DNA of 64,000 nucleotides from Apoderus coryli (Eukaryota > Arthropoda > Insecta > Coleoptera > Attelabidae), in assembly GCA_911728435.2 (NCBI GenBank), contig OU452201.1, positions 3,410,001 to 3,474,000 of the forward strand. The letters run 5' to 3'. The notes below the pieces were generated by a model. That model saw only the letters and a list, made by a program, of their open reading frames with translations. It was not told where the DNA came from and ran no database searches. The stretch's first letter is position 1, and every line of letters starts with the position of its first letter. Positions 5,471 through 58,300 of this stretch are shown here, piece by piece. Both the position numbers and the translations under genes were made by a program.

Positions 5471-7242
5471 AAGTCGACGATCGAACCCTAAGGGGGGAAG
5501 GGGAAGGTTATTTGGAATCACAATAACGATAAAAAGTTATTTAAGTTTTTGTATTTTTCCTATTTTTTCAACATTGCTTTTACTAGTAAACCTCTAAGAA
5601 ATAAATGGCGATACTCCCCTGTTATCTTATAGCAAAGAACAAACTGGTCTTAATAAACTTATTTATAAATGATATCAAGCAGTGTTTCATTCACAGTGAA
5701 TTCAGGCTCTTCGCCGACGACCTGAAGTGTTACCGGCGTATCGGAGGTCCCACAGATTGTTATCTTCTGCAGGAGGATGTTGTGAGATTTGTGCATTGGT
5801 GTGAGTTCCATGGTATGACTTTAAATGTTTCTAAGTGCTTTTGCGTAAATTTCAACCGAACTAGGAGACCTCTTTTTTATGAATATTTTGTCGACCATTC
5901 AGTCCTAAAATACAAATCTTCGGTCAAGGATCTGGGAGTTTACCTGGACACTTCCTTGAGCTTTGTGGATCACATCAGGCACTCGACTTCCAGGTCTCTG
6001 AAAGTGTTGGGCTTCATAAAGCGTCGCTCGGTGGATTTCAGTAATGTGAATACTATTAGAATTTTGTTCACGACGCTTGTCAGACCACATTTGGAGTATG
6101 CCTCGGCGGTTTGGACCCCGTCATACGGTTGCCATTCTGCCCGAGTTGAGAGCGTTCAGCGGCGTTTCCTTAGGTATGTTCACTTTAAGCTTGGTCGTCC
6201 GCGTCCTATCGATTTTGTGTTCGATTACGGAACTATGATGAGCGAGCTGGGGCTTACGACATTGAGTGATCGCAGGGTCGTCAGAGATCTATTAATACTT
6301 TATAAGCTTTTGAACAATATGGTATCGTCTTCTTATTTGTTGTTCAATATTAATTTTCATGTACCGTCTAGGAACAATAGATACTCTCACCTTTTCCATG
6401 AGGAATTTCACCGTACAAATTACGGAGGAAATAATTTTGTCCCTAGAGTGGCCAGGATGGCGAATTCTTGCTTAAGCGTTGATTTCTTTGCGCCTATAGG
6501 TGAATTTATTCGCCGTTTGAAATGTGAGCGTCGTGACGGCAGTTTTGCGTAAGTCGATCGATGCCTGCTGCGTTGACGATCATGGTTTTTCCTTTTATTC
6601 CTGGCGTGGGTCTTGCGAATAGCTTTAGTATAACTTGAATTATGTTTTAATTGTCTACTTATTGTGTAATTTAGAGTTTCTTAGGTTTTGTAAAATTGTT
6701 GAATTTGTGAAGTATTGCATGGAATTATATTTGTTATATTATATTGTATGCTGTATAAATGGACTTTGTCCGTGAATAAATAAATAATAACAATTAGTGT
6801 TTTAGAAAAATGACACCATGAAATTTACCTTGCAAAACTTGTAAAATTAATAATGATTCTAATTAATAATAAAAAATGAGATTAGATGTGTTCTAACCAT
6901 TTTTTTTTAACATTTTCAATTTAAAAAAAAATTAAACATGTTATGAAAATTACATTTTTATGGATTAATATTATGGTACGTTAAATGTTCAAAATATCTG
7001 CCGCCTACCCTTACACATAATCTATTAATTATTCAATTAATAAATTGACTAACAATTTTGAAGCCATAAATTAAGACCACTTTTTTGTTTGCTACAAAGT
7101 ACAGTTATTTTTATAGCTTTACAATAAATAATACATAAACTAAAAAAATTGGATAACTACATAATATATGGTTATGTTGATTCCAAATGAACTCCCCCTT
7201 CCCCTTTAGAGTTTGATCGTCGACTTCTGGAACATTGTCATG
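5458..7242 (-). mobile_element. Tc1/mariner-superfamily remnant split by a LINE
   Basis: Inverted ends of about 60 bp: CAGGGTATCACAGAAGTCGA starts at 5458 and the complement of GTCGACGATCAAACTC ends near 7242. Near the right end (about 6973-7045, minus strand) lies a decayed tail GGRYFEHL, the usual C-terminus of this transposase group. A LINE fills most of the interior. Confidence 0.6.
5605..6790 (+). mobile_element. 5'-truncated non-LTR retrotransposon (Jockey/CR1-like), copy A
   Basis: An open frame encodes the second half of a reverse transcriptase. It has LFINDIKQCF, the catalytic FADD box in FRLFADDLKCYR, then LNVSKC and LGVYLDTSLSFVDHI, and the thumb/C-terminal block RPHLEYASAVWTP. 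It stops at 6552. The 3' UTR ends GTCCGTGAATAAATAAATAA near 6787. The true 5' end is missing: the first 14 or so codons of the ORF (from 5605) are flanking DNA. It is nested in the 5458-7242 element. A near-identical copy lies at 25620-26437. The clade is a judgement from motif style, not a phylogeny. Confidence 0.82.
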
Positions 7243-8215: not shown

Positions 8216-9271
8216 ATATATATTATATAGAATAATATATTATGTACCTACCTATATGGAAGAATAAAAAAAAATCCGATTTATAACCACATATAAACAG
8301 GCTCAAAAACATGCAAATAAATTTTGTTCTTTAAGGCACACTACAAAAATTTGCGTCAAATAAATTAATTTTTGTAAATAACCACTTGACTTAGGTATTT
8401 GAAGAACAAGGTCGAATTATAAATCCACAGAGACGATTATCATATAGGTTTTTTCGTTCGCTTACAAATCTCCACCGTAGAAGGAAATAAAATAATTTGG
8501 CTATATTTTATATTATATTAATAATATTATTATAATATACAGGATTGATATTGAGTCAATCAATTATAATTTGAATATTAGTTACGATACTAACTTGCTT
8601 GTTTTAATTTATAATTTTATAATCCACAAAAACATATTTTTTCCAATAACTAATATCTACTATAGTGCAAAGGACTAGTTCTTATTTACAATACTCAGTT
8701 GACATTTACCTAGTGAAGGAGTTGTAATATTGTATTACAGTGAATCGCATGGGAACACAAACGAATAAGATTATTTAAATTAAATCTTCACAAACTACTA
8801 AGACAGCATCATTAATATTAGGGATTAATTTTTGTTTAACCTTATAAATAGAATTGCAAAAAATGTTATAGCAAAACAAATCATTTAAATATCATGAACA
8901 CAAAAATAATCAATAAAACCATGTGTCAATCAGAATTTAAGATGTTGCAACGTTATATGTTGTTTATAAAGATAAATATAAAATTTGACCCAATTTCTCG
9001 TAATAATTAATTATAGATACATGTATATTATAGAGATAAATGTTTATCAACAACTAATAAATATATTAATTGTTTATTCATAATTACTTCATTCATAATT
9101 ATACACCTTGTCTAATTTATATAAATATTGTTTAACTTGGGCGGCAAATTATACGTCTAGCGTTCGTATTATCAAAAAATCGTTTGTGTCGCCCCAAAAC
9201 TTACGCGACATGATATAATATAAATAAAAATGTATGACCTGCGTAGAATTTTAATAATAATTATTATACAG
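8216..9271. other. AT-rich DNA ending in the 9165-9260 repeat
   Basis: TA-rich tracts (8500-8540) and the second copy of the interspersed repeat. No coding signal. Confidence 0.55.
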
Positions 9272-10490
9272 AGTTATTTGCAGGACAGATCGCAGTTTGT
9301 GCGTGTGAATGAGTTCCAGTCAAAACCTATTCATGTTTCATCAGGTGTGCCCCAAGGTTCACATTTGGGACCACTCTTGTTTAATTTGTTTATTAATGAT
9401 ATTGAACGATGTTTTCTTTATAGTAATTTTAAATTGTTTGCAGATGATCTTAAATTTTATCGTAAGATTGGCTGTGCGAAGGACTGTTATTTGCTGCAGG
9501 ATGATCTAATTAGACTTATGCATTGGTGTGACCGAAATGAAATGGTGCTTAATGCTTCAAAGTGTTTCTATGTGGGTTTTCATCGTGCGAGGGAACCTTT
9601 CTTGTATGAGTACGTTATCTCCGACACTCGCTTGACTTGTAGGACTTTTGTGGTTGATCTTGGTGTTAGGATAGATCATTCCTTGACCTTTGTGGATCAC
9701 ATAAATTGCATGACAACTAAGGCATTGAAAATGTTAGGATTTATTAAACGTATTACTTCTGATTTCACAGATATAAGATCGATTAGACTGCTATACAATG
9801 CGTTGGTCAGACCACATTTGGAATATGCATCGGCGGTTTGGAATCCGTCTTACGCAAGCCATGTGGACAGTATTGAGAGGGTTCAGCATAAATTTTTAAG
9901 ATTTATGCATTTTAAGCTTGGACGTCCTCCACCGCCAGATTATACTTACGACTACTTTTCACTGTGCGATGATTTGAGATTGACCATTTTGGCTGAGCGG
10001 AGAAGCGTGAAGGATCTGATTGTTTTGTACAGGGTGTTGAATGGTTTAGTCTCCTCTTCGCACTTATTGTGCGAGATTACCTTTCGCGTTCCAGTGCGTC
10101 GGGTCAGAGGTACTCGGCTGTTTCATGAGCCGTTCTGTCGCAGAAATTGTACGTCTCATGGATTTATTCCACGAGTTTTGAGATCGGCTAATCGTCACCT
10201 GGCTGTCGATCCGGATCTCGATTTTTTTTCACCTTACGGTGAGTTTGTTAAGGGTTTGCGACAACGTCATCACATTCGCTAAGACATTTTGTTTTATTGT
10301 TATTAATGTGCTATTGTTTGATATTTCATTTTTATGTTCAGCTCTTCAAGATGTTTAAATTTTTGTAGCTGTATGCTTATTATTGAATTATTGTTTTTAT
10401 GGTTCTGTAATCTTGATGTAATTAAATTTATATTTGTGTTTTGTATAATGGACTTAAGTCCGTAGATGAATAAATAAATAAATAAATAAA
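9272..10490 (+). mobile_element. 5'-truncated non-LTR retrotransposon (Jockey/CR1-like), second subfamily
   Basis: The open frame runs through SYLQDRSQFV, SSGVPQGSHLGPLLFNLFIN, the FADD box in FKLFADDLKFYR, LNASKC, LGVRIDHSLTFVDHI and RPHLEYASAVWNP to a stop at 10282. The 3' end is GTCCGTAGATG followed by (AATA)n to about 10491. The RT half is intact with no internal stop, suggesting a rather young insertion. The Met at 9230 and the next dozen codons belong to flanking repeat DNA, not to the element. Protein similarity to copy A is clear but the nucleotide sequence differs widely. Confidence 0.85.
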
Positions 10491-16838: not shown

Positions 16839-18382
16839 CCCATTAATCCCCAACGTTGCGTAAACGAAACATTTTTTAAATATTTTTTTTTTCAATGTGC
16901 CAGTAAAAAAAAATACTTTTTTGTTGCTACAATTTTTTCAAAATAGAACAAAGACTTTACGTTTTAATAAATAAGTCGACAGAGTCAAGATATTTATTTT
17001 GTGCGAATTTATGAACTCGCAACATTTTGAGATTTATCATTTCATATATTCGTCAATCTATTTGTCTGACACAGAAACGGCTGAGATATTTCAAATTATG
17101 GATTTAGATTCCCATGACCTTTAGTAAAAAGGGCGTTATATGATATTTTACAAAACATGTATAGTTTTTGCATATTGGATCATTTTTCCTAATGTTGCGT
17201 ATACGCAACGTTGGGAATTCCGGTAAGAAGGCGCCATAATGTCGCGCCCTTCGGTGACCCACAATTAGGTAGCATTTATTTTGTTTCTTACATTATTTGT
17301 GTGTGATTCTTCTTAGTGAGTGTCAACAAAGATACTAAGTTATAATTATTGTGATTTAAAATTATATTATATATAAAATATAAAGTGAAGCTATGGAAAA
17401 TATTGACTTGAAGTAAGTTATAATTATGGTTCTGTTTGTTAAATTTTTTTCTAAAATAATTTTTTTGGTTATAGTGATGTCTTGGAAAAACAGAATGCCT
17501 TTGTCATCTGCTGAGCTTTTAGCTACATTGGAGGAGGATGAGGATTTACTGCAGACTGATACCGTTGATGCAGTATATATTCCGCCACTCGTAGATGCAC
17601 TTACAGACGAAGAGGAGCTTGACGAAGATATATGTGAGAACGTTGAAGATTTACCAGATGTTGCGGGGACCTACGAAAAACACGCAAATTTGTCTCATAC
17701 TTCTGAAGCCTTAGATGATGAATCTTTACCGTCAAATTCCAAAAAAAGCAAAACTATGTGCAAAAAATATAAAAATGAAGTCGAGAAAACTCTACCGAAG
17801 TGGAGAAAAGAGACCCCAATATATACAACAGGACCATATAATGTAGATAATAATAACTTGGAAGAAATTGAAAACAGAGTTTGCGGTAAAAGCCCTTTGG
17901 AAGTTTTTTCCTTGTACTTCAGTGACGAAGTTTGGGAAAAAATAATATCTTATAATGAAAATATGCTCACGACAATAATCGGCATTTATTTGATATTGAT
18001 AAAACAAGCCTAAAGCTTAAAGCGATTTTTCGGCATACCCATTTTTTCGGGATACCATACGTTACCAGCTACAAAACTATTGGTCAAAAGACAACAAAGC
18101 AAGAAGAAGATGCCGACAGTGTAAAAACAACACAATATACATGTGTGCTAAATGTAAGGTGCATCTTCACACAAACTATTTTGAAATATTTCACACTAAG
18201 TAGTAGTAGTATCTGTTTACCGTAAATCCCAATGTTGCGTATACGCAACATTTTTTTGTAAGAAAACTAAAAACTTTTTTTTTTTTTTAACTTGATAAAC
18301 AGTTATTTGGACATAGGTTTAGTAATAAAATAAACTAAAATCACCGAAATTGTTTGACTTTCCAAGCTTGGGAATTAATGGG
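16839..18382 (+). mobile_element. piggyBac-like element, internally deleted
   Basis: Terminal inverted repeats CCCATTAATCCCCAA (16839) and TTGGGAATTAATGGG (ends 18382) abut TTAA on the right and a decayed CGAA on the left, as expected for piggyBac. Subterminal palindromes GTTGCGTATACGCAAC occur at about 17194 and 18234. A transposase N-terminal fragment and a C-terminal cysteine-rich zinc-finger fragment survive. The catalytic core between them is deleted. Confidence 0.85.
17478..18013 (+). pseudogene. piggyBac transposase N-terminal fragment
   Basis: The frame from MSWKNRMPLSSAELLATLEE has an acidic N-terminal region (Asp/Glu rich, typical of piggyBac proteins). It then passes through YKNEVEKTLPKWRKETPIYT and ends in CGKSPLEVFSLYFSDEVWEK, the start of the DDE_Tnp_1_7 domain, before stopping. 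About 100 bp later (about 18093-18200) a second piece reads RRCRQCKNNTIYMCAKCKVH followed by LHTNYFEIFH, the C-terminal Cys/His finger. All three catalytic Asp residues are lost. Confidence 0.82.
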
Positions 18383-21286: not shown

Positions 21287-21540
21287 CGTATGACGCCGCC
21301 ATTTTGGGTTACAAGTCAGGTCCTGACTAAGAATAATTATAGTTCTCGGTTTCTAACCACAGTACTGTATTTTAATTTTTGTAAAAATATTTAAGTATAT
21401 AATAATATCGCTGTCAATTTCAGAAATATTTGTGGTGTGTCATAGTGATTGAAAACAGCCTTGAGTGGTGGTATCAGTTAAATGTTGACATGATTGGGTG
21501 ATTTTTAATAATAATATTAAACACAACAATAATAAAGACT

Positions 21541-22346
21541 ATTAAGAGGATTTCATGTCCGTAAATATAATAAATGAAAATAATTTCGTGGCAAAGCGGA
21601 CTAAAATGTTGGCTTTACCTACACAAGGAATTTTGTTTAATTTAGCAGGGCCCCAGTCTAATTCGATAGAAACCAGACCGAGGCATGGGTCGACAGGTAC
21701 TGACGAATTCGTTTCGCTCTTGTTATGAGCTCGTCAGAGCACCATAGTCGCTGCCCATCACAAATATCGGCCTGCATTTAAGCACAACAGGATACACAAC
21801 AGTAGACACATGTAAACACATATCATCTACATGTACATAGTAATGCATATCCTATACCATGCAGAGGCCGAACAAACTCAATGTATAGGTAAAACCAGTC
21901 GTATAAATAGAAATAAATAAAAATAGTATGAACACAAAACGCTAGCAGGAGACCATTTTATCCTTCTGCCAGCATCTCCCAAATATTTGGGTTTCAGCAA
22001 TGCTCGGACGGTGGTCTCCAAGCGTTCTGCCGTCGATGTTTAATGCCAAATAATGAAAAATTAAGAGGATTTCATGTCCGTAAATATAATAAATGAAAAT
22101 AATTTCGTGGCAAAGCGGACTAAAATGTTGGCTTTACCTACACAAGGAATTTTGTTTAATTTAGCAGCGACTATGGTGCTCTGACGAGCTCATAACAAGA
22201 GCGAAACGAATTCGTCAGTACCTGTCGACCCATGCCTCGGTCTGGTTTCTATCGAATTAGACTGGGGCCCTGCTAAATTAAACAAAATTCCTTGTGTAGG
22301 TAAAGCCAACATTTTAGTCCGCTTTGCCACGAAATTATTTTCATTT
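21541..22346. mobile_element. palindromic composite insertion with 13-bp target duplication
   Basis: AATAATAAAGACT flanks the insert at 21528-21540 and 22347-22359. Inside, block A (21541-21648) and block B (21649-21753) are followed by unrelated DNA, then a second direct copy of A (22060-22167), then B and A as reverse complements (22165-22347). The inverted arms of 183 bp (21571-21753 and 22165-22347) appear perfect. No coding capacity is visible. I do not recognise the family. Confidence 0.75.
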
Positions 22347-22479
22347 AATAATAAAGACTTTATTAGTAAAAAAGATATTTTTATAAAAGTTGAAGCAGCT
22401 TAAACCTATCTGAAAATAGTTTTACATCGCTGGCCAAATTAAGTAGGTAGCTTATGTTTACAAATTAATTTGTTCTATT

Positions 22480-23402: not shown

Positions 23403-25619
23403 ACGAAATGCGCAGGACGGCTCGCAAGCGGAAAGTCAGAATACTGTATTATTTATTATACTGTGGCACTAGTATCTTAAAGTAAAATGTCAAATTTTGG
23501 AAGAAAATCTCAATCAATATTGCACTCGAGATTTTCTGGGCAACAAATCCAATTTAGCTCGACTGGCCGCTTCATCTATATATGTCATTAAATGGATCAA
23601 TGAAACCATCATTTTCTTCTGTGTTTTCTTGCAATTTTAAGACAAAATCACAAATGTGTTTTAAAAAACTGACACAATGACAGCAGATTTGACCTTTTTG
23701 GTAAATAATAAAGCCAACAATGGTTGATATGAATGTTTTTTGACAAATGTCAACTTAGATAATTTTGAATAAGTATATACAGTGGTATTTAAAACTATCT
23801 GTTTTCAATTTTGCTAAACAATCTGAACATTTATTTCGTAACTGATAAATTATTGCTGTTTGAAGAAAAAAAAGTGTATGATATATGTGTTAAAAGTGTA
23901 CTTTTAACACTTATATCATAAATAACTATTATAAGGTACCTACGTGAGATATCACCTTAAATGGCCGCAAATTTTCATAACCGTTTTTTGCTGCCATTGA
24001 CCATGATCATAATAATGAGGTACAATAATTTAATTAACATAAATTTTCAATTTAGAAAAATTACAAAATTAGTTTAAAAATATGCTACCTATATAAAATT
24101 GTGAGTGGATGTTATTTGAAATTTATTTAAAACATCTAGGTAAATAGAAGAATTATAAATATATGTACTCGTATTATGGTAGTGTTTTTTTTATCTTCTT
24201 GAGATATTATAGAATCACAAGTTGTGAAAAAATAATTTAATTAATATGAACAAATTGTAATTAATTCGGATTGACTAATGGCTATGATTTTTGAACAAAT
24301 TCAGGTTCTGGCCACCAAAAGCTCACGTTTCTGGTCAATATTTAGTAAATGTATTACAAGCTGTCCCATGGTCAAACTCGGCTATCGATCTCTCGGTAAA
24401 ATATTCATTCAAAATATGAAATTATATACAGGGTGGCCGTTTGAAAACGAAAAACAACCAATACTGCAGTTCATTTATGAAAAAACGCTCCGATCCTTCA
24501 ATTTTTGATTTTACGAGGAAACACTTTTTTGACATTTACGTCAAATCCCTAGGAGGGGTGGCAAGCAACCCCAAAATTTTAAATTAAATGGAGGTCGACT
24601 GATACCTTATTTGAAAGTTATTTAACGTAGACAACAAATTAGGCACTTTTGATAGGAAACACCAATTTCTAGATGAGGTTTTAGTGGTTTAAAATATACA
24701 GGGTCGTATTTAGTTCATTTTTGCCAGCACACAATTGACAACCACTCTGTATCTTTTAAACCAATACCAATGTGCGAAGTCTTTCATGTTGAGAGTGACT
24801 ACAATTCATAACTTCTTAGTCGTAGTTTTTAATTATTTTAATTATATGTTTATTTCTAATAACTCGTATAGGAAGCAGCAACAAAAGATTTATTATCAGT
24901 TTTGTTTTGTGACCCCAAGCAAAATCATCAACTTCATTAAATTCAAAGGTCATAATCTGCAGTTATAGAGTTGACAATGACATTGTTTTTTATTCTGAAT
25001 TAAATAAATTTTATATTTTTATCGTGAAAAGAATTATTATTACTTTTATGAAATTAGAATAATCAGAAAAATGTTGTTTAACATTAATTCGTTATTCCTG
25101 ATGAATTACGAAGGATACGATCAAAGGAAATAGGTACAGCTAACTATATTATGACTTTCATTATAAACTAATAAATATTTTCTAATGAAGAAAAAGCGTA
25201 GCTCCATAATATTTCCATTTTCCATGTTACTTCTAAGATTCTAATCCAATTTTAGATCAAAACTCGAAATAAGGTATGAAGGCTTCAAAAGAGATTAAAA
25301 TGGTGGACGATGGACGCCACTGGAGTGGCTTCACTATCCTGGAATTTAAAACTTTTTGATCCAGAATTTCAATGACTGATGTTAGAACTTCTCATAAGGA
25401 ATTACCGTTTTTGTTCCCCGAACAGTCATAGTTACAACCTAGGGGTTGAACTTTTGAAATAGAAATAGTATATCTAAATCAATTAATGAATGTTTCCTTA
25501 TAAAAATATTTTAAAATTATTTTAGAGCACGCAAACATCATTTTTGACATATAAAACCTTAAATAGGTGAGAAAAAGTGTTATAATACACTAATACAGAA
25601 AATTATTTGTCCCCCAGTG
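23403..25619. other. AT-rich DNA with possible transposon-end motifs
   Basis: TATACAGGGTGGCCGTTTG (about 24425) and ATACAGGGTCGTATTTAG (about 24697) resemble Tc1/mariner-type ends but do not pair. The frames at 24278 and 24735 are AT-rich and unlike known proteins. Confidence 0.45.
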
Positions 25620-26437
25620 TTCTCACCTCGGGCCATTGTTATTTAACTTATTTATAAATGATATCAAGCAGTGTTTCATTCACAGTGAATTCAGGCTCTT
25701 CGCCGACGACCTGAAGTGTTACCGGCGTATCGGAGGTCCCACGGATTGTTATCTTCTGCAGGAGGATGTTGTGAGATTTGTGCATTGGTGTGAGTTGCAT
25801 GGTATGACTTTAAATGTTTCTAAGTGCTTTTGCGTAAATTTCAACCGAACCAGGAGACCTCTTTTGTATGAATATTTTGTCGACCATTCAGTCCTAAAAT
25901 ACAAATCTTCGGTCAAGGATCTGGGAGTTTACCTGGACACTTCCTTGAGCTTTGTGTATCACATCAGGCATTCGACTTCCAAGTCTCTGAAAGTTTTGGG
26001 CTTCATAAAGCGTTGCTCGGTTGATTTCAGTAATGTGAATACTATTAGAATTTTGTTCACGACGCTCGTCAGGCCACATTTCGAATACGCCTCGGCGGTT
26101 TGGACCCCGTCATACGGTTGCCATTCTGCCCGAGTTGAGAGCGTTCAGCGGCGTTTCCTTAGGTATGTTCACTTTAAGCTTGGTCGTCCGCGTCCTAGTC
26201 GATCGATGCCTGTTGCGTTGACGATCATGGTTTTCCTTTTATTTCTGGCGTGGGTCTTACGAATAGCTTTAATATAACTTGAATTATGTTTAAATTGTCT
26301 ACTTATTGTGTAATTTAAAGTTTCTTAGGTTTTGTAAAATTGTTAAATTTGTGTAGTATCGCATGGAATTATATTTGTTATATTATATGGTATGCTGTAT
26401 AAATGGACTTTGTCCGTGAATAAATAAATAAATAAAT
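25620..26437 (+). mobile_element. 5'-truncated LINE (Jockey/CR1-like), copy A' with internal deletion
   Basis: Nearly identical to the LINE at 5605-6790. It starts slightly further upstream (VPQCSHLGPLLFNLFIN) and keeps FRLFADDLKCYR. After GGTCGTCCGCGTCCTA (ends 26197) it jumps to the copy-A sequence GTCGATCGATGCCTG, skipping about 345 bp that encode the protein C-terminus. The (AATA)n tail ends near 26437. Confidence 0.85.
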
Positions 26438-34873: not shown

Positions 34874-35792
34874 TTTTCTACTGTAATTTTGTGTATTAAC
34901 TACCTACTACCTATATTTTGGATTAGCTGAATTTAACAACAGTAAAAGTTGAGGTTAGACATATAAACTATTATAAACAAGTCAAAAATGTCAATTGTCA
35001 AGCCGGTATTTAACAACGCATTGACAATAGTCAATTTCAAGTGACCTAGCAGTTTTAACATTGGTTATCTTTGTGGTTGAATATAACGGTTTTCGCAGTT
35101 ATATATTTTTTTAAATTTACCAATATTGGAAGCAATTCACAGAAAATGTTCTATAATGTGTAAAGTAAAAACGAAATAAGAATGGACCACTGGAATTTAT
35201 CTAATATATTTCAAATAACTTTTCTTCTGAGTAACGAAATATTTCAGGACCACAATAATATATAACTGAATTTAAACAGAATATGAATTATTTAAAGCAT
35301 TATAGACGCCCAGATTTCGGCAACAGTGATTCCGCATTACACGAAATATTTCAGGACCACAATAATATATAGCTGATTCTTCTACAAACTCAGATCAGCT
35401 GGGCTGATATGACATGATCCTTACCTCACTTGCATTTTATATAAAAGGAACTGGAAACTGTCAAAACTATCAATGGCTATGAAACATTTTGAGGTTTTCT
35501 CATTTAACTGTCAATCAAATTTGTAACAGGAACTTGCGTGACAAATAGGTGAGAGGTGAGTGAAAATTGCTGATATTTCGCGTAGAAGATAACGACACTT
35601 AACGGTTATAAGTGTCACTTGTCTATGTTAAATTTTGTCGGTTTATATTTGTTTTTTATTTTTATAGTTTTGTGAATTTAAGCAAAATAAATTGAAAATT
35701 ATTACAGTTTATGTACTATTTATCACAGTAACAGTGCATTTTAATTATATATTTAGTGATTGGACTGAATTTAATTGGCATTTGGGTAGATA
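34874..35792. promoter_or_regulatory. divergent CFAP20/NDC1 intergenic region
   Basis: This 919-bp gap must contain both promoters. I see no clear TATA box. The only structured features are the 34-bp direct repeat (35237-35373) and short AT-rich stretches. Confidence 0.45.
35238..35373. repeat. direct repeat of about 34 bp between CFAP20 and NDC1
   Basis: CGAAATATTTCAGGACCACA plus AATAATATAT occurs at about 35237 and again at about 35341, 104 bp apart, with one or two differences. It lies in the shared upstream region of the divergent gene pair. It may be regulatory or part of an untranslated leader. Confidence 0.6.
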
Positions 35793-37514
35793 ATGATGAA
35801 TCCTAACCTAACAACAAAACTGAATTTATCATATAAAGACATACTTCTAAGGAAATTGTCATATTCGGTAACATGCAGCGTTGTGTCCCAAATATTTCTA
35901 CTTCACATGTACATATTCCTGACAAACTACAACTTCCTGCATCCATGGGATTGGATAACTCGTTCTCTGAAGATATCAGCTTCCTTAAGTACATGGTTGT
36001 ATACTATACCTTTTCTAACTATTATATTTGCACAAGCTATTATATGCTCAAAAGACTATGTAGTGAAATCAAACTTTTGTACAACAAGATTTCAAAAACT
36101 ATTGTCAGTGTTTTCATTAAGGAATTTAGTGTTGTTACTAATGTATATAATAATCGGCGGTATCTTGGTGTTCATTTTTTTATCACTCGGACAGGGTGAT
36201 AATTCAACTTTAGTGGAAAATTGTAAAGGACAATTATATTGTTTGAATGAGAGTACATTTTATCTTATTATAAGTGGATTTTGGACGGGATTTTATTATT
36301 TTATAAAAGTTTATATGTCTAAAAAGCATTTAACATTTCCTGTGATCAATCAAAGGAAATTTTTGCACTTTAAATCAAATTTTCGGGACTTGTTTAAAGA
36401 ATCGGCATCGCTAGCTGTGTGGCCAAGTTTATTTTATATAATATTGTATTATATTCAAGGTAGCACTATTTCAAAAACTTTTAGCCACGTTTTTGGACTA
36501 CTACAAGATAACGAAAATCCTTTTAATATTTCATTGATATTTAATTTATATTTATTCACGGTATTGTATTATTTGAACATGAATATGATGAGATTCTTTT
36601 TTAATATATTTCTCACGGAACCTGTGGAGTTTCCTTTGGAAAAAGATGATATTTCCAATCTAACGTTACAAGACTGCATAGTGAACAACAATTGGCCGAT
36701 AGTCCAGAATCTGGCATGTTTTGATTTGTATTTGCTAGCACAATGGTCAAAGCACCGTAGACAATCACTGTTTACGTTATCTCAACCTGGAGGTCATCCA
36801 CATAATTGGAACACTTTGATTGAAAATGTCACTAAATTATTAAATAATTACAGTGAATTGCTCAATTATAAATCTGATGAAAGTGTGAGTCAACCGAAAA
36901 TCGAAACGTTTACAAATAAAAGTAATCTAATGACAAATAATTTTGTAAAGTTTCGAAACATTCGCAACATGTCAATGCAAGACTCTCATGATTACAACGT
37001 GGTTACAGTTACAAAGAAATATCCATTAATAGAAAATGAATTTACACAAAATTTCGTGAATACAGCACAAGGAAAATTAAAATCTTATTGGAATTTCATT
37101 AAAATAATTACTGGTGTGAACTTTTTGTTCGGGGAACTGCCGCAAACAAATATACAAAAGTGTCTTGCTGATGGTCAGTTAGTGATTTGGGCGTCTCAAG
37201 GAATCAGTGATATTACATGTGCGTCACTAGAAGAAGACCCTTACGGTATTGTACAGAAAGATATGCCATTAATAATTACAACTTTAGTGAATCTTAAACA
37301 AAATTTGGATAAATTGAACAAAATTTCGGTATTGTCGCGAAAAACATTAGCCGGTTATGACGAATTCAACTATAGAATGAAAGGAGCAGTCACAGCATCT
37401 GTGCGAAGAAGTCTTTTCAATATTTGTCGTGTGTTCAGACATTATTTGGACGAAATTCCTTTGAGTAAAGATGTTAAACAATACCTTCAGACGAGTGTGG
37501 GTTGTAAGAATTGA
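35793..37514 (+). CDS. NDC1: NDC1, transmembrane nucleoporin (single exon, 573 aa)
   Basis: NDC1 is an integral membrane nucleoporin that anchors the nuclear pore complex and helps insert it into the nuclear envelope (family knowledge). The protein has about six hydrophobic segments in its first 290 residues (near 27-45, 65-83, 110-132, 152-170, 207-225 and 245-265). A soluble cytoplasmic-type C-terminal half follows. It contains the family signature FTLSQPGGHPHNW (about residue 330), preceded by NLACFDLYLLAQWS. The length is close to that of other insect NDC1 proteins. The ORF has no intron, unlike its neighbours. Its start is 0.9 kb from the divergent CFAP20 start, so the two may share a promoter region. 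A second Met directly follows the first. Confidence 0.93.
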   Translation: MMNPNLTTKLNLSYKDILLRKLSYSVTCSVVSQIFLLHMYIFLTNYNFLHPWDWITRSLKISASLSTWLYTIPFLTIIFAQAIICSKDYVVKSNFCTTRFQKLLSVFSLRNLVLLLMYIIIGGILVFIFLSLGQGDNSTLVENCKGQLYCLNESTFYLIISGFWTGFYYFIKVYMSKKHLTFPVINQRKFLHFKSNFRDLFKESASLAVWPSLFYIILYYIQGSTISKTFSHVFGLLQDNENPFNISLIFNLYLFTVLYYLNMNMMRFFFNIFLTEPVEFPLEKDDISNLTLQDCIVNNNWPIVQNLACFDLYLLAQWSKHRRQSLFTLSQPGGHPHNWNTLIENVTKLLNNYSELLNYKSDESVSQPKIETFTNKSNLMTNNFVKFRNIRNMSMQDSHDYNVVTVTKKYPLIENEFTQNFVNTAQGKLKSYWNFIKIITGVNFLFGELPQTNIQKCLADGQLVIWASQGISDITCASLEEDPYGIVQKDMPLIITTLVNLKQNLDKLNKISVLSRKTLAGYDEFNYRMKGAVTASVRRSLFNICRVFRHYLDEIPLSKDVKQYLQTSVGCKN

Positions 37515-49300: not shown

Positions 49301-52300
49301 TGGGGCGATCAGGTAAGTGAAATGATTTAAATCATTTTTAGAAGCTCTCAAAATGATTATATCTCTTTATCTCAATTTTTTTTAGTGCGTTCAGAATACT
49401 TTCCCTATGGGTCAGAGTTGTAATTCCGTTGTTTTATTCTAATAACCTCTATATCTTTGGTTTTTCCAACCAACACATTTTTACAGACTTTCTATTTTAG
49501 GATGGTAACCCACCTGGGGAAGGTAAGGTGATTGGTGAATTAGGAGATGATGGATGGGTCAGAGTAGAATGGGGAAATGGTACAACCAACAGTTACCGCA
49601 TGGGCATTGAGGGTAAATATGATTTGACATTAGCCTCACCGCCCTCACCTGTCACTTCAGAGACAGAAACAGATGACCCAAGCGATAGAAGTAAGTATTT
49701 TGACCTAATACACGTAATCTATCATAATTTATTAATACGCAGTACCTATTTCACTTCATTATAATATTTGTGATTAAACATTTCTTATTTAGTAGAGTAT
49801 CGGCGCGTCTATGTGTTGGTAGTTGCTTTATGGGGTCAGTGACCTCCCAGGCAGCCGATATAGGAACTGTTGTTCACTCGGCGTACTACCAACGAAAACT
49901 AGATGTCGCCAAACACATCCTTTTACATCTCTGTACCGTGTGGGGTATATACCTCATTATTTACGGGAGTTTGGCTGTCAACTACTGACCGATCACCACT
50001 GATGAGTCGTGGATCGACGAAACGGCCGTCTGGTGAACGTATAGTGGTTGACAGACAAACTCTCGGAATATAAGTCTTGTTTTGTTAAACAAGCCCATTC
50101 CAAATATAGGCAGTCCCGCTTAAGGGAGTATCGGCGCGTCTATGTGTTGGTAGGTGCTTTATGGGGTCAGTGACCTCCCAGGCAGCCGATATACGAACTG
50201 TTGTTCACTCGGCGTACTACCAACGAAAACTAGATGTCGCCAAACACATCCTTTTACATCTCTGTACCGTGTGGGGTATATACCTCATTATTTACGGGAG
50301 TTTGGCTGTCAACTACTGACCGATCACCACTGATGAGTCGTGGATCGACGAAACGGCCGTCTGGTGAACGTATAGTGGTTGACAGACAAACTCTCGGAAT
50401 ATAAGTCTTGTTTTGTTAAACAAGCCCATTCCAAATATAGGCAGTCCCGCTTAAGGGAGTATCGGCGCGTCTATGTGTTGGTAGGTGCTTTATGGGGTCA
50501 GTGACCTCCCAGGCAGCCGATATACGAACTGTTGTTCACTCGGCGTACTACCAACGAAAACTAGATGTCGCCAAACACATCCTTTTACATCTCTGTACCG
50601 TGTGGGGTATATACCTCATTATTTACGGGAGTTTGGCTGTCAACTACTGACCGATCACCACTGATGAGTCGTGGATCGACGAAACGGCCGTCTGGTGAAC
50701 GTATAGTGGTTGACAGACAAACTCTCGGAATATAAGTCTTGTTTTGTTAAACAAGCCCATTCCAAATATAGGCAGTCCCGCTTAAGGGAGTATCGGCGCG
50801 TCTATGTGTTGGTAGGTGCTTTATGGGGTCAGTGACCTCCCAGGCAGCCGATATACGAACTGTTGTTCACTCGGCGTACTACCAACGAAAACTAGATGTC
50901 GCCAAACACATCCTTTTACATTTTTATAGCCTATCTGATTTCTAACTGTTTTTATATTTTTATACACAATTATTTAGAGGTATTAAAGAGTGAAGTTGGG
51001 CTGCAATAAAAATATTTTGAATATTAATTAATTTAACTTGTTAATTTAGTTGGATCCCAGACAATTCGCGATAACCAATTAATCAAACTTCTGCGCGATA
51101 GCTGCATCAATTTTCTGCGCAACGTATCAATCAGCTGTGGTCTAGCTGTAGATAGTTTACATCGAACAACGTTGCATAGTATTAGTAGCTTGATCTGTTC
51201 TACATTGGGTGCACACAGTTCAGATTGGTGCAATTTGACTCTAACCAGGTAAAATTTATACTTTGAATTGAATTTCTGAGTAACCTAATTTCCGCCGATA
51301 CTTTATTGTTTACTACATACTGCCTTACTCAGATTACAACCACCACAACATAAACCCACTACTACTCCAAACAGATACATCCTCTCCGTTTAGTACCTAT
51401 TTTTTTTTCTTTTAAGAATTGTGTGCCAAAGTCAACAAATGTGTAGAGCATTTAGTACAAAGCCTTGGATCAATATGCTGATCGGATTTCTAACCCCACC
51501 TACAAGTGTTAGTGGCAACGAACTGAACTTGCCTAAACAAGTACGTGAATCATTTGTATTTTATTTTAAATACTATTATTAAACATTAGATAGACGTAAG
51601 GACGATCTAAAGTACCTACACTAAATGAGTACAAGAAAAAATGACGGATCAACCTGTTTGTCAACGCAATACGTCTAGGGAGTTCTTATTATTCTTATTA
51701 CGTGTCAGGTTCTGGACAAATGTAATTTTTAAATGTCTTTCGTTTATTAGATCTTGACAATTCGTTTACTCCAAACCGTACTACAATCATGGGACATGGA
51801 CAATCCAGAAATACCGAACGTTTTGGAAAAATTGTTAAACATTCTCGGAAAAATTATAATAACATGTTCTTACGACACTGGATACAATAAACCTGCGGCT
51901 TGCAATAAATCATTGGTTCTGGTGACGCAGTCGCATAGCAGTACATTAGCGCAGGAAATAATCGGTTTGTTTAGATTTCTTCATGGCATGGTCGGATGGA
52001 ATCAAGTTAGTATTATTTTATTGATTATTTCAAAGTTTAAACATGTTGGTTATTTTGGTGTTTTAGGTTTTAAATGCAATTTTGGTACATAAATTGAACC
52101 TCGCAGCGTATTTTCTTAGTGATTCAATGATTAATGAAGGAGTAACATCAGATCAACAACACTTTATGGTTGTAGCATGTTTGAACGTGATTGGAGGGTG
52201 GGATACACGTCCGAGAATCGGAGCTTTAGCTGAGACTGACGGTAATTAGTTTCAAATTATAAAAGAGCATTCAAAGCCTTTTGAAGATTTCAAATGATTA

Positions 52301-55300
52301 GAGCTTTCGTTCGGAACCATTGTTCCTCGAAAGTAATTTAAAATAAAAAAATAAATTTGAATTTTGGTGTTGTTTGTTTTTTAAAGATTTAAGATTATTG
52401 TAAAATGTTATAAATATATTAATAATCTATTTAATTTATCAAGTTTTCTTGGGTATTGGGACAAAATCTAAACTCAGTATTTCTGAATTTTAAATTCTAT
52501 TGCAACGTTTCGTGCAATATGTGCACATCATCAGGCTACAAAAAACACAAAACCTCAATAAAGTAAAAGTTATATAAATAAAAACACTCAACAAAAGGAC
52601 GATGACCAAACAGACTAACATAACATTTTAAAAAATTAGATTATATTGACACAGAGTCTAATACCTACCATAGAAAATCTGTTCAAATTCCCTAAAAATG
52701 TTAACATTGTTTTCGAACCTATAACAGCTAAATAGAACAAAATATAATAAAATTAATATTCACAGTGTCAATGAGAGATGGGAATTCTCTCACCACACAG
52801 ATCATAAAAAAGTAAGTAGATAAAATAGATATCATAAAAAGAACTAAAGTAACTCATAGGCGTAGGTCAACCATTTTGTTATGTTTTAATTAAGTTAGTG
52901 TAAATGACACTCAAACCGTTAATGTCTCTCTGATTATTAATGGCATCAGGCTCCTTATTGATGTACACCATTTCCTTGAAGAGTCTCGATCTTTCTTTGT
53001 GTTCAATGCCCAATATCACATAGTTTTCAAAATCAAATAAGTGCCCCGTATCACTATGATGTTCAGAAAGAGCGGTACAACTTTTTTTGTAGCGACAGTC
53101 TAAACGGTGTTGATTGATACGATCCTTGATATAATTTTTCGTTTGACCAATGTATTTACCTGAACATTGTGTACAAGGTATTTGGTATATAACATCACAC
53201 ATATGTTCCTTCTTTGGTCTGTCTTTAAGTTTACTGAACAAGGATCGTGTCGTTTTCTTGTAATACGGGGCAATGGACACTAAATCTGACTTTAATATGT
53301 TGTTAAGTCTATGGAAAACACCCGGTATATATATCAGTGGTAACCTGATCAATGGTAACATGTTTTGATTGTCATTCTGTACTGCTCTATCTCGGATCCG
53401 GTGTTCATTGAAGATCTTGTTCAACAAATTCACAGGATAGCCATTATTTGTTAGGAGACCCTTTAAGATTGTCAGATTGTTTTCTATCAAGGTGGAATGA
53501 CATAGCCTTTTGACTCTCGTTAACATGGATTTAATCAATATAATCTAATTTTTTAAAATGTTATGTTAGTCTGTTTGGTCATCGTCCTTTTGTTGAGTGT
53601 TTTTATTTATATAACTTTATAACTTTTACTTTATTGAGGTTTTGTGTTTTTTGTAGCCTGATGATGTGCACATATTGCACGAAACGTTGCAATAGAATTT
53701 AAAATTCAGAAATACTGAGTTTAGATTTTGTCCCAATACCCAAGAAAACTTGATAAATTGAAACAAAGTGGGATGATAGTTTGATAATTGATAATCTATT
53801 TAATATGTTTCAAGGTGGTTTTGGCACAATAACGAAAGTAACGCAAAAAGGTAAATTATGCATTCAGCTTCATAGTACCGGTGAATACAAAAAAATATCA
53901 GTGCCTCATTTGAAACTTTCTCCTACGGTCAAATTCAATTTTGATAAAATGTTATTAAGCGAGAACTTTGTACGGACATGGGCAAATCTATTGCTGATCA
54001 AACAGAGTTTGTTAAACAATTATGACAGAAGATCCTATCATGGTAGAATTATAAATAATTCTTGTATAACTTTTAAACTGCATGACAATTTGATTTTAGG
54101 TCATGTTAATTTAGCTTATCTACGTATTCAACAGAATATATTAAGCGCGTTAAATGCTACAAGAGTTTTACAGACAAATCAACATAGATTACGAAAAGTA
54201 TTGAAATATCCTGTTAACGGCATGGATCAATCACAAGAGCAGCAGTCAATTGAAGAAGAATTAAACCAACGACCAGTACTCTTAATTCAAAAACTGCTGA
54301 CGAAAGCAACCCAACCGAGTCCGTTGAAGCAAGGTTTTAATTTACAGGAAATACAGTTGGCAGCACTGAATTTGAGTCAGTATCTTGCAGCAGAAGGTAT
54401 GTAAACTTTCTCAATATCGTTATTAATAATATTTTTAGCTCTCCATATCATATATGTAATATATGTATATATGGAGACTATTAGTTTCATGAAAAAATTT
54501 TTTTTTTTAATTTCACCGGAAATACTTCTTTTTGGTCATTTTATACATAAATAAGTAGTTTTAAAAAAATGTCTGTCTGTCTGTCTGTCTGTCTGTATGT
54601 CTGTCTGTCTGTCTGTATCCACGAAAACGCAAAAACCGCTTAACAGATTTTAACCAAATTTGGTACAAAAATACTATTGGACATGGCAAGGAGCTGATTA
54701 GATTTTGGGAAACATTGAGCGTAGGCAAAGGGTTTAAAAGAGGGTTCAAAAATTAAAAAAATTCATAGTTCTTAAACTTATCCGAAATACTGCATAATTT
54801 TTTACGCATTTAATTGAATATAACCTAAAATATTGAACATAAAATATTAGACCCTTAGATTAGGAAAGAGAGGGGATACCGCACGTTCGTATATCTGAAT
54901 GTATGGCAAGTGTTACGCTTTTAATGCGGCGGCCATTTTATAGGTGCTGAAAAACAGAAAACTACGTTTGCATTTTTGATGATTTTATTTGTGAAAATTG
55001 GGAATAGAAATTTATTTTGTATATTAATAAAATGGTACATTGTGTGGCTTTTGGATGCCCAAGTCGCAGTGAACAAAAGGAGTCCAGAATTTCGTTTAAT
55101 AGGTAAAACTTAGAATGATGTATCAAGTCGCTTCTAGTTTTTATTAGTTTTTAATAATTATAAGTAATCTTTAGGCTATTATCTTTTAGTATGTAGTATA
55201 ACAGGTTTCAGTTTACCTAATTAAAACTGTTTGATACAACAATTCATTTAAAATCAACATGATAAAGCATTATTTATTGATAAAAACCTCTATAGATGTT

Positions 55301-58300
55301 TACTTTACCAGGGGCGTAGACATTATATTTTTCCAAAAAATTTGTTTTTTACACATTTTTGCGTTAAAAGTGAATAAAATAATGTCACTTTAGCTTTTTA
55401 ATTATTTCAATCTTTAGAATAACATGCACTAGATAGCCCAGCAAATCACCTAATATACTTTTTAATAAAATCTATTTGTGTTAAATGTCTTAATGTTCGT
55501 GTATATTTCATAACAAAACTACAGTCTCAAATACTAAATCCCATTCTCGAAATCAATTAACAAAACGCATTCTATTTAAAGGACAATAAAAACAGTATGT
55601 ATTGGTGTTGTGTCTACTGCAGTACCTCTCACTCACAGATTATCTCTAACCGAAAAATCAGCATTATATAATATGATAATTAGATTTGTGAACAAACTAC
55701 CAATCAGTATCAAAGAAATAAATAGATTGAAGATATTTAAGAATGAAGTTAGGAAATTACTAGTGGAACTAGAACCATATCAATTGGCGGATTATTTTGA
55801 TATGTAGTTAGGAGTATCAATTTTTTTTTGTTTTTCTCTTTTTTGACGTCGTTTCATTTATTTGTATGCTCGTGTGATTGTGGATATGTAGGTAGATTTA
55901 TTTGAAATAAAGAATTGTTATTATTACTATTAATACATCAACATGCACATATCTTTTTTTATTAAAACTATTAATCATCAAAATTAAATAAAATTTCAAA
56001 AATATATCACATAAGTTATGTATGTTACGCCTCTGAATCTAAGGGCTAAGTGCTAGGTGGTAACACAACGACCGGCACAGTTACGGGTCCACTCTCTTTC
56101 CTTGTCTAAGATTAGACCACATTGGCGTTCGAAAATAGTGTAAAATGGGGTAAAAAAGATTAAAAAAAAACGTATTTCTTAAAAATAGCAGAAATATTAA
56201 CTAGTTATTGATAGTTTTGATAGAATATAACCTATAAAATGTGTCATGAATAACTTACTTTCATAGGCGTTCGTAAATAGTGGAAAAGGGGTCAAAACAT
56301 AAAAAATATATATTTCCTAAACTTATTCGAAATATGGAATAATTTTTCATAGTTGTGATACAATATAAGCTAAAAAATTTTCCATAAAAGAATTAGTTCA
56401 CAAAGGCGTTCGAAAATAGTTTAAAAAAAGGGTCAAAAACGAAAAAAAAAACGTTTCCCAAATATACCAGAAAAATTGGCTAATTATATATAGCTTTGAT
56501 ATAAGATAACCTAAAAAATGCAGCATAAAATTTTTATTCACATAGGCGTTCGTAAATAGTAGAAAAAGGGGTAAAATAAAAAAAAATTAAAATGTAAAAA
56601 ATTTTATATTTAACTAGATGAATTGGTGTTAAAAATACACGACAAAAATTAATGTACCATAGGCGTTCGTAAAAATTCTATAAAAGGGTCAGAAAAAATT
56701 TGTATCCGTGATAACTCAAAAACCACTTAACGGATTTTAACCACATTTGGTACGAAAATACTACAGGATAATTATAGGTGGTGATTAACATTGAGCGTAG
56801 GCAACGGGTTTAAAAGAGGTTTCAAAAATTTAAAAAATCATCGTTCTTAAACTTATCCGAAATATTGAATAATTTTTTATAGTTGTGATAGAATATAACC
56901 TAAAAAATGTTACATAAAAGAATTAGTTCACACAGGCGTTCGAAAATAGTCTTAAAAAAAGAGTCAAAAACGAAAAAAAAAATGTTTCCCAAATATACCA
57001 GAAAAATTGGCTAATTATATATAGCTTTCATATAAGATAACCTAAAAAATGCAGCATAAAATTTTTATTTACATAGGCGTTCGTAAATAGTAAAAAAAGG
57101 GGTAAAATGAAAAAAAAAATAAAATGTAAAAAATTTTATATTTAACTAGTTGAATTGGTGTTAAAAATACACGACAAAAATTAATGTTCCATAGGCGTCC
57201 GTGAAAATTCTATAAAAGGGTCAGGAAAAAATTGTATCCGTGATAACTCAAAAACCACTTAACGGATAACCTATGTCATGCAGCATAACAATTTTGTTTA
57301 CATAGGCGTTCGTAAATAGTAGAAAAGGGGGCAAAATAAATTTTATAATAAAACTAAAAAAAAATCAATTATTTTGCGTACAAGAATTTGGCCTAGATCT
57401 GAAATATAAAATATCTGCGTATAAATAGTGCCTCCAAAGAGAAGAAAAAGGCACAAAACCCGATACAAAAAAAAAATAGCTGATGTCTAAAACAAAACAA
57501 AAATTTAGATAAATGACAAAAAGGTCATAAAATTATTACTTTTACACTTAAATATGGAGAGCTATTCGTGCCTCGAGGGCAACAGCTAGTTTCCTTAATT
57601 TTAATATTCAATCCATTATCACGTTTTCACAAAAAACAAAAAGTTGTCATAATATATAAAAATTACATTATCTTATAGGCAACTTTGAAATTACCCCATC
57701 TGGTATCAACAACGATAGACCAACTACGTCAAATGTACGTCTAACTTCACCCTGTGCAACAAATGTGCTCGATGTGGCAACACCGAACAGTGAATGCTCG
57801 ATCAAAAGCGTCGTGAGTGAAAAGACGAATAACAAACGACGTGCGACAGTAGATGGAGAGGAAGTTCCAATAAACCCTTTGGTAAAACAGATTGCAGAAA
57901 TGGGTTTTACTAGGAAATCCGTTGAGACGGCTATCAAATGTCTAGGTGGGTAAAGAGTGAAACAAAAATATGATTTATTGATTATTTTTTGTTTAGCAAT
58001 AGCACCAGATAATTTAATGACACCTGAAACAATTGTCAGTTGGTTATTGGAACATCCTGAAGTTGCCGCTGAAGATAATGAGTCTATGAGTACTGTTTAT
58101 GAGTCTGATACTGATTCAGTCTCCTATGATAATGCTGCGAATGCATTTTCCGTGAATTATGTGAGTCAATAAGCATTTAATAATCGGATGAAAAATTATT
58201 TTGAAATAATTGTAGAACGAGGATTCAGAATGCGCTGGGCGATGTCAAACATACTGTAGGCGTTCTCAATTTCTCTCTAATGATGAATACGCTATGTACG

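Follow-up and report, generated by a model that had tools for sequence, protein, structure and literature searches.

A 64,000-nucleotide stretch of the Apoderus coryli genome (hereafter the window; assembly GCA_911728435.2, contig OU452201.1, positions 3,410,001 to 3,474,000 of the forward strand) contains, inside an intron of its HERC2 gene, a tandem retrozyme-like array of 331-bp units in which each full unit carries a type I hammerhead ribozyme (Table 1). We call the family with this 331-bp unit A331, and a second hammerhead-bearing family in the window, with a 525-bp unit, B525; insertions of both families elsewhere in the genome suggest that they are moved by machinery resembling that of Penelope-like elements (PLEs). 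The host gene is, by its domains, HERC2: RCC1, Cyt-b5, Cul7, ZZ, ANAPC10/DOC and RCC1 follow one another along the plus strand of the window, a MIB_HERC2 domain spans both exons preceding the array, and the order RCC1, Cyt-b5, MIB_HERC2, Cul7, ZZ, DOC, RCC1 is what we take to be that of HERC2. HECTD1, the best PDB match, was rejected as host gene on this domain order. Splice signals (a GTAAGT donor at 49691 and a TTTAG acceptor whose last base is 51049), reading frames and domain order confirm the sense orientation of the array within one intron, as given in a preliminary description of the window, and 1127 of the 1359 bases of this intron (83%) belong to the array. Tandem Repeats Finder reports 3.4 copies of a 331-bp period at 49795-50921 with 99% matches and 0% indels; the period earlier called exact is so as regards length, whereas the sequence varies slightly among copies (unit 1 differs at 2/331 positions). 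Since its units are nearly identical, the insertion in HERC2 is probably recent. The longest plus-strand frame inside the array, among listed frames of at least 55 aa, is 69 aa, too short for a PLE reverse transcriptase/GIY-YIG gene, so A331 is not itself a PLE.

The hammerhead parts earlier assigned to the three monomers, and cleavage after 50030, 50361 and 50692, were recovered by a scan for the ribozyme core. At the Rfam gathering threshold the whole window gave 0 matches, while an E-value scan matched all three ribozymes to RF00163 over its full length on the plus strand (E 2.9e-6), 0.2 bit under the Rfam cut-off. Matches to mir-181, VR-RNA and snoRNA models in the E-value scans were rejected, all being well under their cut-offs. 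The region around the A331 hammerhead folds far better than shuffled sequences (z -6.07). Its stem III is the palindrome ACGGCCGT, without a real loop, because of which a single hammerhead may be weak. Amphibian retrozymes have a similarly weak palindromic helix III, and their hammerheads cut better as dimers (PMC7229834; here and below, published sources are cited for parts of their text). The newt/axolotl satellite hammerheads of that paper also have a unit of ~330 bp, and their helix III is set beside that of A331 by description only. By analogy, A331 would cut best in a tandem RNA. Cutting of the HERC2 intron RNA at three places, as earlier proposed, is not certain, because the ribozyme-competent fold is predicted to be less stable than the best one and helix III is short and palindromic. 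Of 82 whole A331 hammerheads, 73 retain an intact core, and 38/40 loci have it in at least one unit; in B525 all 160 of 160 whole hammerheads retain it.

With up to 3 mismatches allowed, the 32-nt hammerhead core occurs 1504 + 1510 = 3,014 times in the 428-Mb genome (129 contigs), and the same pattern read backwards occurs 0 times in it, so the count is not due to chance. The array is thus not special to HERC2 and is one copy of a dispersed family, of which 40 loci were read: the window array and 39 other loci among the 40 candidates scored (1290 in a first look). B525 was found by the hammerhead scan as one sequence present twice in inverted orientation. Its sample comprises the window element and 38 loci among the matches listed (39 candidates scored; 1454 in a first look; 326 matches), and the query was itself two-ended, so that two-ended loci are favoured at the top of the matches. 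Neither family contains a reverse transcriptase or endonuclease gene. Another two-ended A331 insertion (L016, G000:C10:3390955-3391594) lies ~18 kb before the first base of the window.

The ends of these insertions mostly fall at two fixed start sites within the unit, here named P and D. Over the 40 A331 loci the ends cluster at u308-314 (P) and u124-140 (D, mode 134), with unit positions counted from u1 = 50126 and unit 2 as the reference; the P and D ranges were fixed after the ends had been inspected. Outer ends are 3′ ends in the hammerhead sense in 65 of 80 cases in A331 and 78 of 78 in B525, and, as read from genomic ends, 62/65 and 76/78 of these outward 3′ ends lie at a named site. Along the sense RNA, P and D are 75 and 229 nt downstream of the hammerhead cut in A331 and 133 and 161 nt downstream in B525. 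Wherever both ends of an insertion lie at named sites, one is P and the other D (A331 23/23, B525 37/37), and no P/P or D/D locus occurs among the 79 loci of the two families. These two-ended insertions are head-to-head, and a sample ordered by place on the contig rather than by likeness has the same layout: among the first 100 listed exact A331 hammerheads, all on contig C1, 32 neighbour steps of less than 1 kb comprise 13 minus-plus, 0 plus-minus, 10 plus-plus and 9 minus-minus. Arm junctions overlap by 0-6 nt in 11 of 21 A331 and 29 of 37 B525 insertions measured, the rest having small gaps. The D arm is longer overall (medians of 514 against 308 in A331 and 949 against 590 in B525), with P the longer in 7/23 and 14/37 insertions, respectively. 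Of the 40 A331 loci, 23 are P/D insertions; where a named end is paired with a 5′ end, it is D in 11 loci and P in 2, which might mean that D is used first or more strongly. In B525, 37 of the 39 loci are P/D. The window array belongs to the one-ended group, with its D end at 50921 and its 5′ end at u1, and shows the insertion mechanism only via its relatives.

Table 1 Coordinates of the hammerhead-bearing elements and the host intron in the window.
Feature	Position	Strand	Remarks and basis
HERC2 intron around array	49691..51049	+	Splice signals, frames, HERC2 domains in exons
A331 retrozyme array (putative)	49795..50921	+	3 full 331-bp units + 134 bp of a fourth
A331 array unit 1	49795..50125	+	2/331 substitutions vs units 2 and 3
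A331 array unit 2 (reference)	50126..50456	+	
A331 array unit 3	50457..50787	+	Identical to unit 2
A331 array partial unit	50788..50921	+	Stops at u134 = site D
Type I hammerhead ribozyme 1	49993..50036	+	Cut after 50030; RF00163 match and core scan
Type I hammerhead ribozyme 2	50324..50367	+	Cut after 50361; RF00163 match and core scan
Type I hammerhead ribozyme 3	50655..50698	+	Cut after 50692; RF00163 match and core scan
Inferred start site P, unit 2	50436	+	u311 marked; ends over 40 loci
Site P equivalents	50105 (unit 1), 50767 (unit 3)	+	
Inferred start site D, unit 2	50259	+	u134 (mode); ends over 40 loci
Site D equivalents	49928, 50590	+	Array right end 50921 = D end
B525 element, second hammerhead element	21541..22346		Head-to-head, two-ended, one P and one D end
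B525 hammerhead	21702..21737	-	Core scan
B525 hammerhead	22181..22216	+	Core scan
B525 target site duplication AATAATAAAGACT, 13 bp	left 21528..21540, right 22347-22359		

Target duplications accompany the two-ended anatomy. Duplications of at least 9 bp (9-15 bp) flank 26 of the 40 A331 loci, the window not among them, vs 8 of 150 cross-paired controls made from flanks of different loci; the search permits overlap with element letters in loci and controls likewise. In B525 duplications of at least 9 bp flank 35/39 loci vs 2/150 cross-paired flanks, and within the P/D loci they are found in 21/23 and 34/37 insertions of A331 and B525. Their length is 12-14 bp in 20 of 26 A331 and 27 of 35 B525 cases. 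The deduced nicks prefer T at +2 and +3, with frequencies of 0.74 and 0.81 in A331 (42 nicks) and 0.79 and 0.69 in B525 (68 nicks) over a background of 0.37, and this preference is present on both strands.

The genome also appears to host PLEs, judging by GIY-YIG profile matches, a minimal hammerhead at the one PLE end sequence read at length, and ten tailed pairs of elements. All 150 GIY-YIG matches scored exceed the cut-off (1260 in a first look), and all 19 neighbouring matches less than 8 kb apart are in minus-plus orientation. The PLE pairs were picked for this head-to-head layout, so that two-endedness was chosen and the P and D ends were not. Outer ends were taken for 11 of the 19 pairs, of which 10 were readable; in the eleventh, the left end is not PLE sequence at the expected place. 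In all 10 readable pairs one end lies at or just past CAGTTT and the other has a further ~35-nt tail, which amounts to one P and one D end in 10/10, with no P/P or D/D, and target duplications of 12-14 bp flank all 10, against a maximum of 7 for cross-paired flanks. The pair L094/L095 at first looks like two equal ends without a duplication; once the tail is recognised, one of its ends proves to carry it, and the duplication measures 12 bp. A331, B525 and the co-resident PLEs thus have a common insertion anatomy. The word CGCCAAA lies 15-19 nt before the end both at A331 site D (u112-134) and in the PLE tail, which may mean that both bind one protein or may be coincidence.

If the two arms of an insertion were copied from two unrelated RNAs, they should differ as loci do. 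Where each arm has at least two agreeing units, 0/703 positions differ between arms in A331 (4 loci; 12.1 expected) and 0/5694 in B525 (16 loci; 19.4 expected), giving 0/6,397 against ~31 expected when pooled, and 500 permutations of the right arms in each family yielded minima of 3 and 8 differences. At positions that vary among B525 loci, 27/28 insertions are uniform across both arms at u213 (split 20:19 among loci), 28/28 at u247 and 29/29 at u278. The corresponding A331 counts are 10/10 at u10, 12/12 at u29, 12/12 at u46, 12/13 at u102, 11/11 at u160, 11/11 at u172, 18/19 at u274, 17/19 at u276, 10/11 at u306, 10/10 at u315, 10/10 at u318 and 9/10 at u319; split positions are linked, and these are not independent tests. 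Non-uniform cases are changes within one arm, except u319 in locus L019, where the arms differ and the letter is uncommon in the family. Over all positions, the median left-right difference (A331 0.018, B525 0.0029) is about half the median difference between loci (0.035 and 0.0065), and the medians for neighbouring units of the same arm are 0.017 and 0.000. Both arms mostly share the variants of their locus, in a comparison in which two RNAs of one donor locus would look like one RNA. Unit differences within one insertion are private to one unit in 190 of 211 A331 and 34 of 41 B525 cases, and since these private changes persist, the agreement of the arms is probably not due to gene conversion between them.

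The arms also bear on the shape of the template. Those with a named end cross the hammerhead cut in 56/62 (A331) and 72/76 (B525) cases and exceed one unit in 42/62 and 55/76, the longest reaching 2240 and 3674 nt, and there is no pile-up of their 5′ ends at the cut (3/62 with 2.06 expected, and 2/76 with 1.59 expected). Because the arms run across the cut, exceed one lap and show no preference for ending there, what was copied was not usually a linear monomer released by cutting; the simplest candidate is a circle, and an uncut multimer is possible.

In the model that we consider fairly probable, PLE-type machinery starts at each of the two broken ends of the target and copies a circular A331 RNA; the model joins the two fixed start sites, used once each per two-ended insertion, with the target duplications, the variants shared by both arms and the like anatomy of the co-resident PLEs. 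Tandem A331 copies would be transcribed and cut by their hammerheads into 331-nt units, which a host ligase would close into circles, a pathway taken from PMC7229834 and assumed for A331. A Penelope-type reverse transcriptase/endonuclease would then make two nicks in AT-rich DNA, whose stagger and polarity would leave 3′ ends of ~12-14 nt. Each 3′ end would prime inside the same RNA, one at P and the other at D, the polymerases would travel along the circle, in many cases completing more than a lap, and the two complementary DNAs (cDNAs) would be joined head-to-head, mostly with an overlap of 0-6 nt. Were only one end extended, a one-ended tandem array would result, as may have happened in HERC2. 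In a stricter version, to which we give slightly less than even credence, a two-headed Penelope-type complex would place one target strand on P and the other on D of one circle and copy both simultaneously, so that the two cDNAs would chase each other round the circle before joining.

Several observations weigh against the model. Thirteen of the 40 A331 loci, among them the window array, combine a named end with a 5′ end, three have one odd end and one has no named end; two of the 39 B525 loci have one odd end. The window array is itself one-ended, and its best target-duplication word is only 6 bp. When single-unit arms are allowed, a count that includes the stricter set, arms differ at 17/2780 positions in A331 (5 of them in locus L031) and 15/13423 in B525; later mutation of single units can explain these differences, most of them in A331, and two templates in some loci are possible. 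B525 arms also differ slightly more than units do (means of 0.0046 between and 0.002 within arms, compared with 0.021 and 0.019 in A331). P and D sequences are common between the families only as short words. PLE nicks prefer G at +1 (0.55) and T at +2 (0.65; n=20), which resembles the T preference at +2 and +3 in A331 and B525 and is not identical to it, so that the lineage of these PLEs may not be the one responsible for the movement. As to the ribozyme, all three window copies score 33.8 bits against the RF00163 Hammerhead_1 cut-off of 34, and hammerheads of B525 and the PLEs fall far short of their cut-offs (B525 only 20.6 bits for HH9, cut-off 52; the PLE end sequence only 18.3 bits). The competent A331 fold lies 8.7 kcal/mol above the predicted minimum, when stem III is taken as 2 bp since its palindrome leaves no loop, and conservation of the hammerhead core relative to random positions is not significant (A331 P 0.54, B525 P 0.14). 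Finally, in vitro an anole PLE displayed no strand difference in start site and did not need the hammerhead for insertion (PMC11167929).

The last of these points also speaks for the most serious rival, which we regard as unlikely though a real contender: transcription of an existing array would supply an uncut linear multimer as the template, and the machinery would otherwise be the same. In the anole experiments insertion was unchanged with hammerhead mutants, and the dominant substrate was said to be RNA that had not been processed (PMC11167929); such a multimer would equally produce arms that cross the cut and end without a pile-up there. Most hammerhead cores are intact, however, so that a transcript long enough for arms of up to 2240 and 3674 nt should be cut. 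A multimer would moreover transmit the unit-specific variants of its donor, whereas differences within an insertion are mostly private, with only 21 non-private cases in A331 and 7 in B525. The circular template is for these reasons preferred.

Movement in trans by target-primed reverse transcription and twin priming of a long interspersed nuclear element (LINE) is improbable. Duplications of 12-14 bp fit LINEs as well, 15-bp duplications beside Nematostella repeats have been likened to those of LINEs (PMC4918200), and LINE-like reverse transcriptase frames seem, on our own reading, to be present in the window. The two-ended copies, however, begin internally at both outer ends, at P on one side and at D on the other, and the co-resident PLEs obey the same rule; the printed ends show no noticeable poly-A tail.

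It is less probable still that the intronic array serves the host as a source of circular RNA or sets HERC2 splicing kinetics, as the preliminary description had suggested. Its sense orientation, its three identical intact cores and its share of the intron would suit such a use, and inhibiting an intronic self-cleaving ribozyme in Cpeb3 is reported to raise CPEB3 protein (PMC10919898), but the HERC2 array is one copy among thousands of hammerhead motifs. Its significance for the HERC2 intron is modest: it is an insertion in sense orientation and might cut the RNA of that intron.

Two further alternatives are scarcely credible. Snap-back self-priming of one cDNA, proposed for rotifer Penelope elements (PMC3846280), would account for palindromes with a head-to-head structure and identical variants in both arms, but it predicts the same site at both outer ends, seen in 0/70 insertions with two named ends, and the arms differ in length and stop point. 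Spread as satellite DNA through unequal crossing-over or DNA circles, without reverse transcription and with arm identity due to gene conversion, would suit near-identical tandem units, and conversion between inverted arms is possible, but the copies are dispersed, with target duplications and fixed ends, and their persisting unit-private changes indicate that conversion has not homogenised the units.

Among known systems, A331 is best classified, from its sequence features, as a non-autonomous metazoan retrozyme without long terminal repeats (LTRs). Such elements have type I hammerheads, tandem units of ~170-400 bp, no LTR and, when present, target duplications of more than 4 bp, as in the A331 family; insects are among their carriers, and PLEs are described as a strong candidate for their mover (PMC7229834). 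A331 fits this class in the features compared, barring the 0.2-bit Rfam shortfall and a GC content of 47.4%, which lies between the limits of <45% (figure legend) and <50% (text) of that paper; the 525-bp unit of B525 exceeds its unit range. The cited text of PMC7229834 describes tandem repeats, with no mention of head-to-head ends, two starts or a one-P-one-D rule. Plant LTR retrozymes are likewise non-autonomous and spread via hammerhead-made circles, but have type III hammerheads, LTRs, a primer-binding site (PBS), a polypurine tract (PPT) and 4-bp duplications, unlike the animal repeats, which have type I hammerheads and no PBS or PPT, except for a tRNA stretch in schistosome repeats (PMC4918200).

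Although A331 has no gene and is not a PLE, it inserts like one. PLEs resemble A331 and B525 in having two internal start sites, cuts in both strands, short target duplications and inverted terminal repeats with an optional 30-40-bp tail at one inverted end (PMC11167929, PMC3846280), the one-sided tail being described in rotifer Penelope elements (PMC3846280). Purified anole PLE protein is reported to cut both strands and extend them, with internal starts at two adjacent sites (PMC11167929). The dimensions differ: P and D are 154 nt apart along the A331 sense RNA vs ~30 in PLEs, and duplications here are mostly 12-14 bp vs 8-10 bp in three rotifer Penelope examples (PMC3846280). A literature search, with preprints, most subscription papers and supplements outside its scope, found no account of two-ended retrozymes with one P and one D end, nor of a variant shared by both retrozyme arms.

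The insertion scars connect retrozymes with PLEs and yield a sharply defined rule: a two-ended insertion has a P start and a D start, and its arms carry the same variant. This rule can be checked in any PLE-bearing genome and in vitro. The available text of PMC7229834 leaves the enzyme that moves animal retrozymes open, PMC3846280 discusses the origin of PLE inverted repeats as unsettled, and PMC11167929 calls the steps after the start of reverse transcription not yet validated. If the two-headed rule is true, it would account for two features of PLEs, their inverted repeats and the tail on only one side, and animal retrozymes would be moved by PLEs.

Elsewhere in the window, three plus-strand frames (5605-6549, 9224-10279 and 25594-26274) resemble LINE-type reverse transcriptases, on our own reading of a FADDL-like motif; the first, the sole one scanned, gave 0 Pfam matches. 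A plus-strand frame at 17417-18010, with an acidic stretch near its start, resembles a piggyBac-like transposase. Two tandem arrays with a 141-142 bp period, 72-77% alike, occupy 56119-57120, and a TGTC simple repeat of 11.8 copies lies at 54570-54616. An uninterrupted 574-aa frame at 35790-37511, also on the plus strand, matches the nucleoporin Ndc1 (PF09531, E 1.2e-67).

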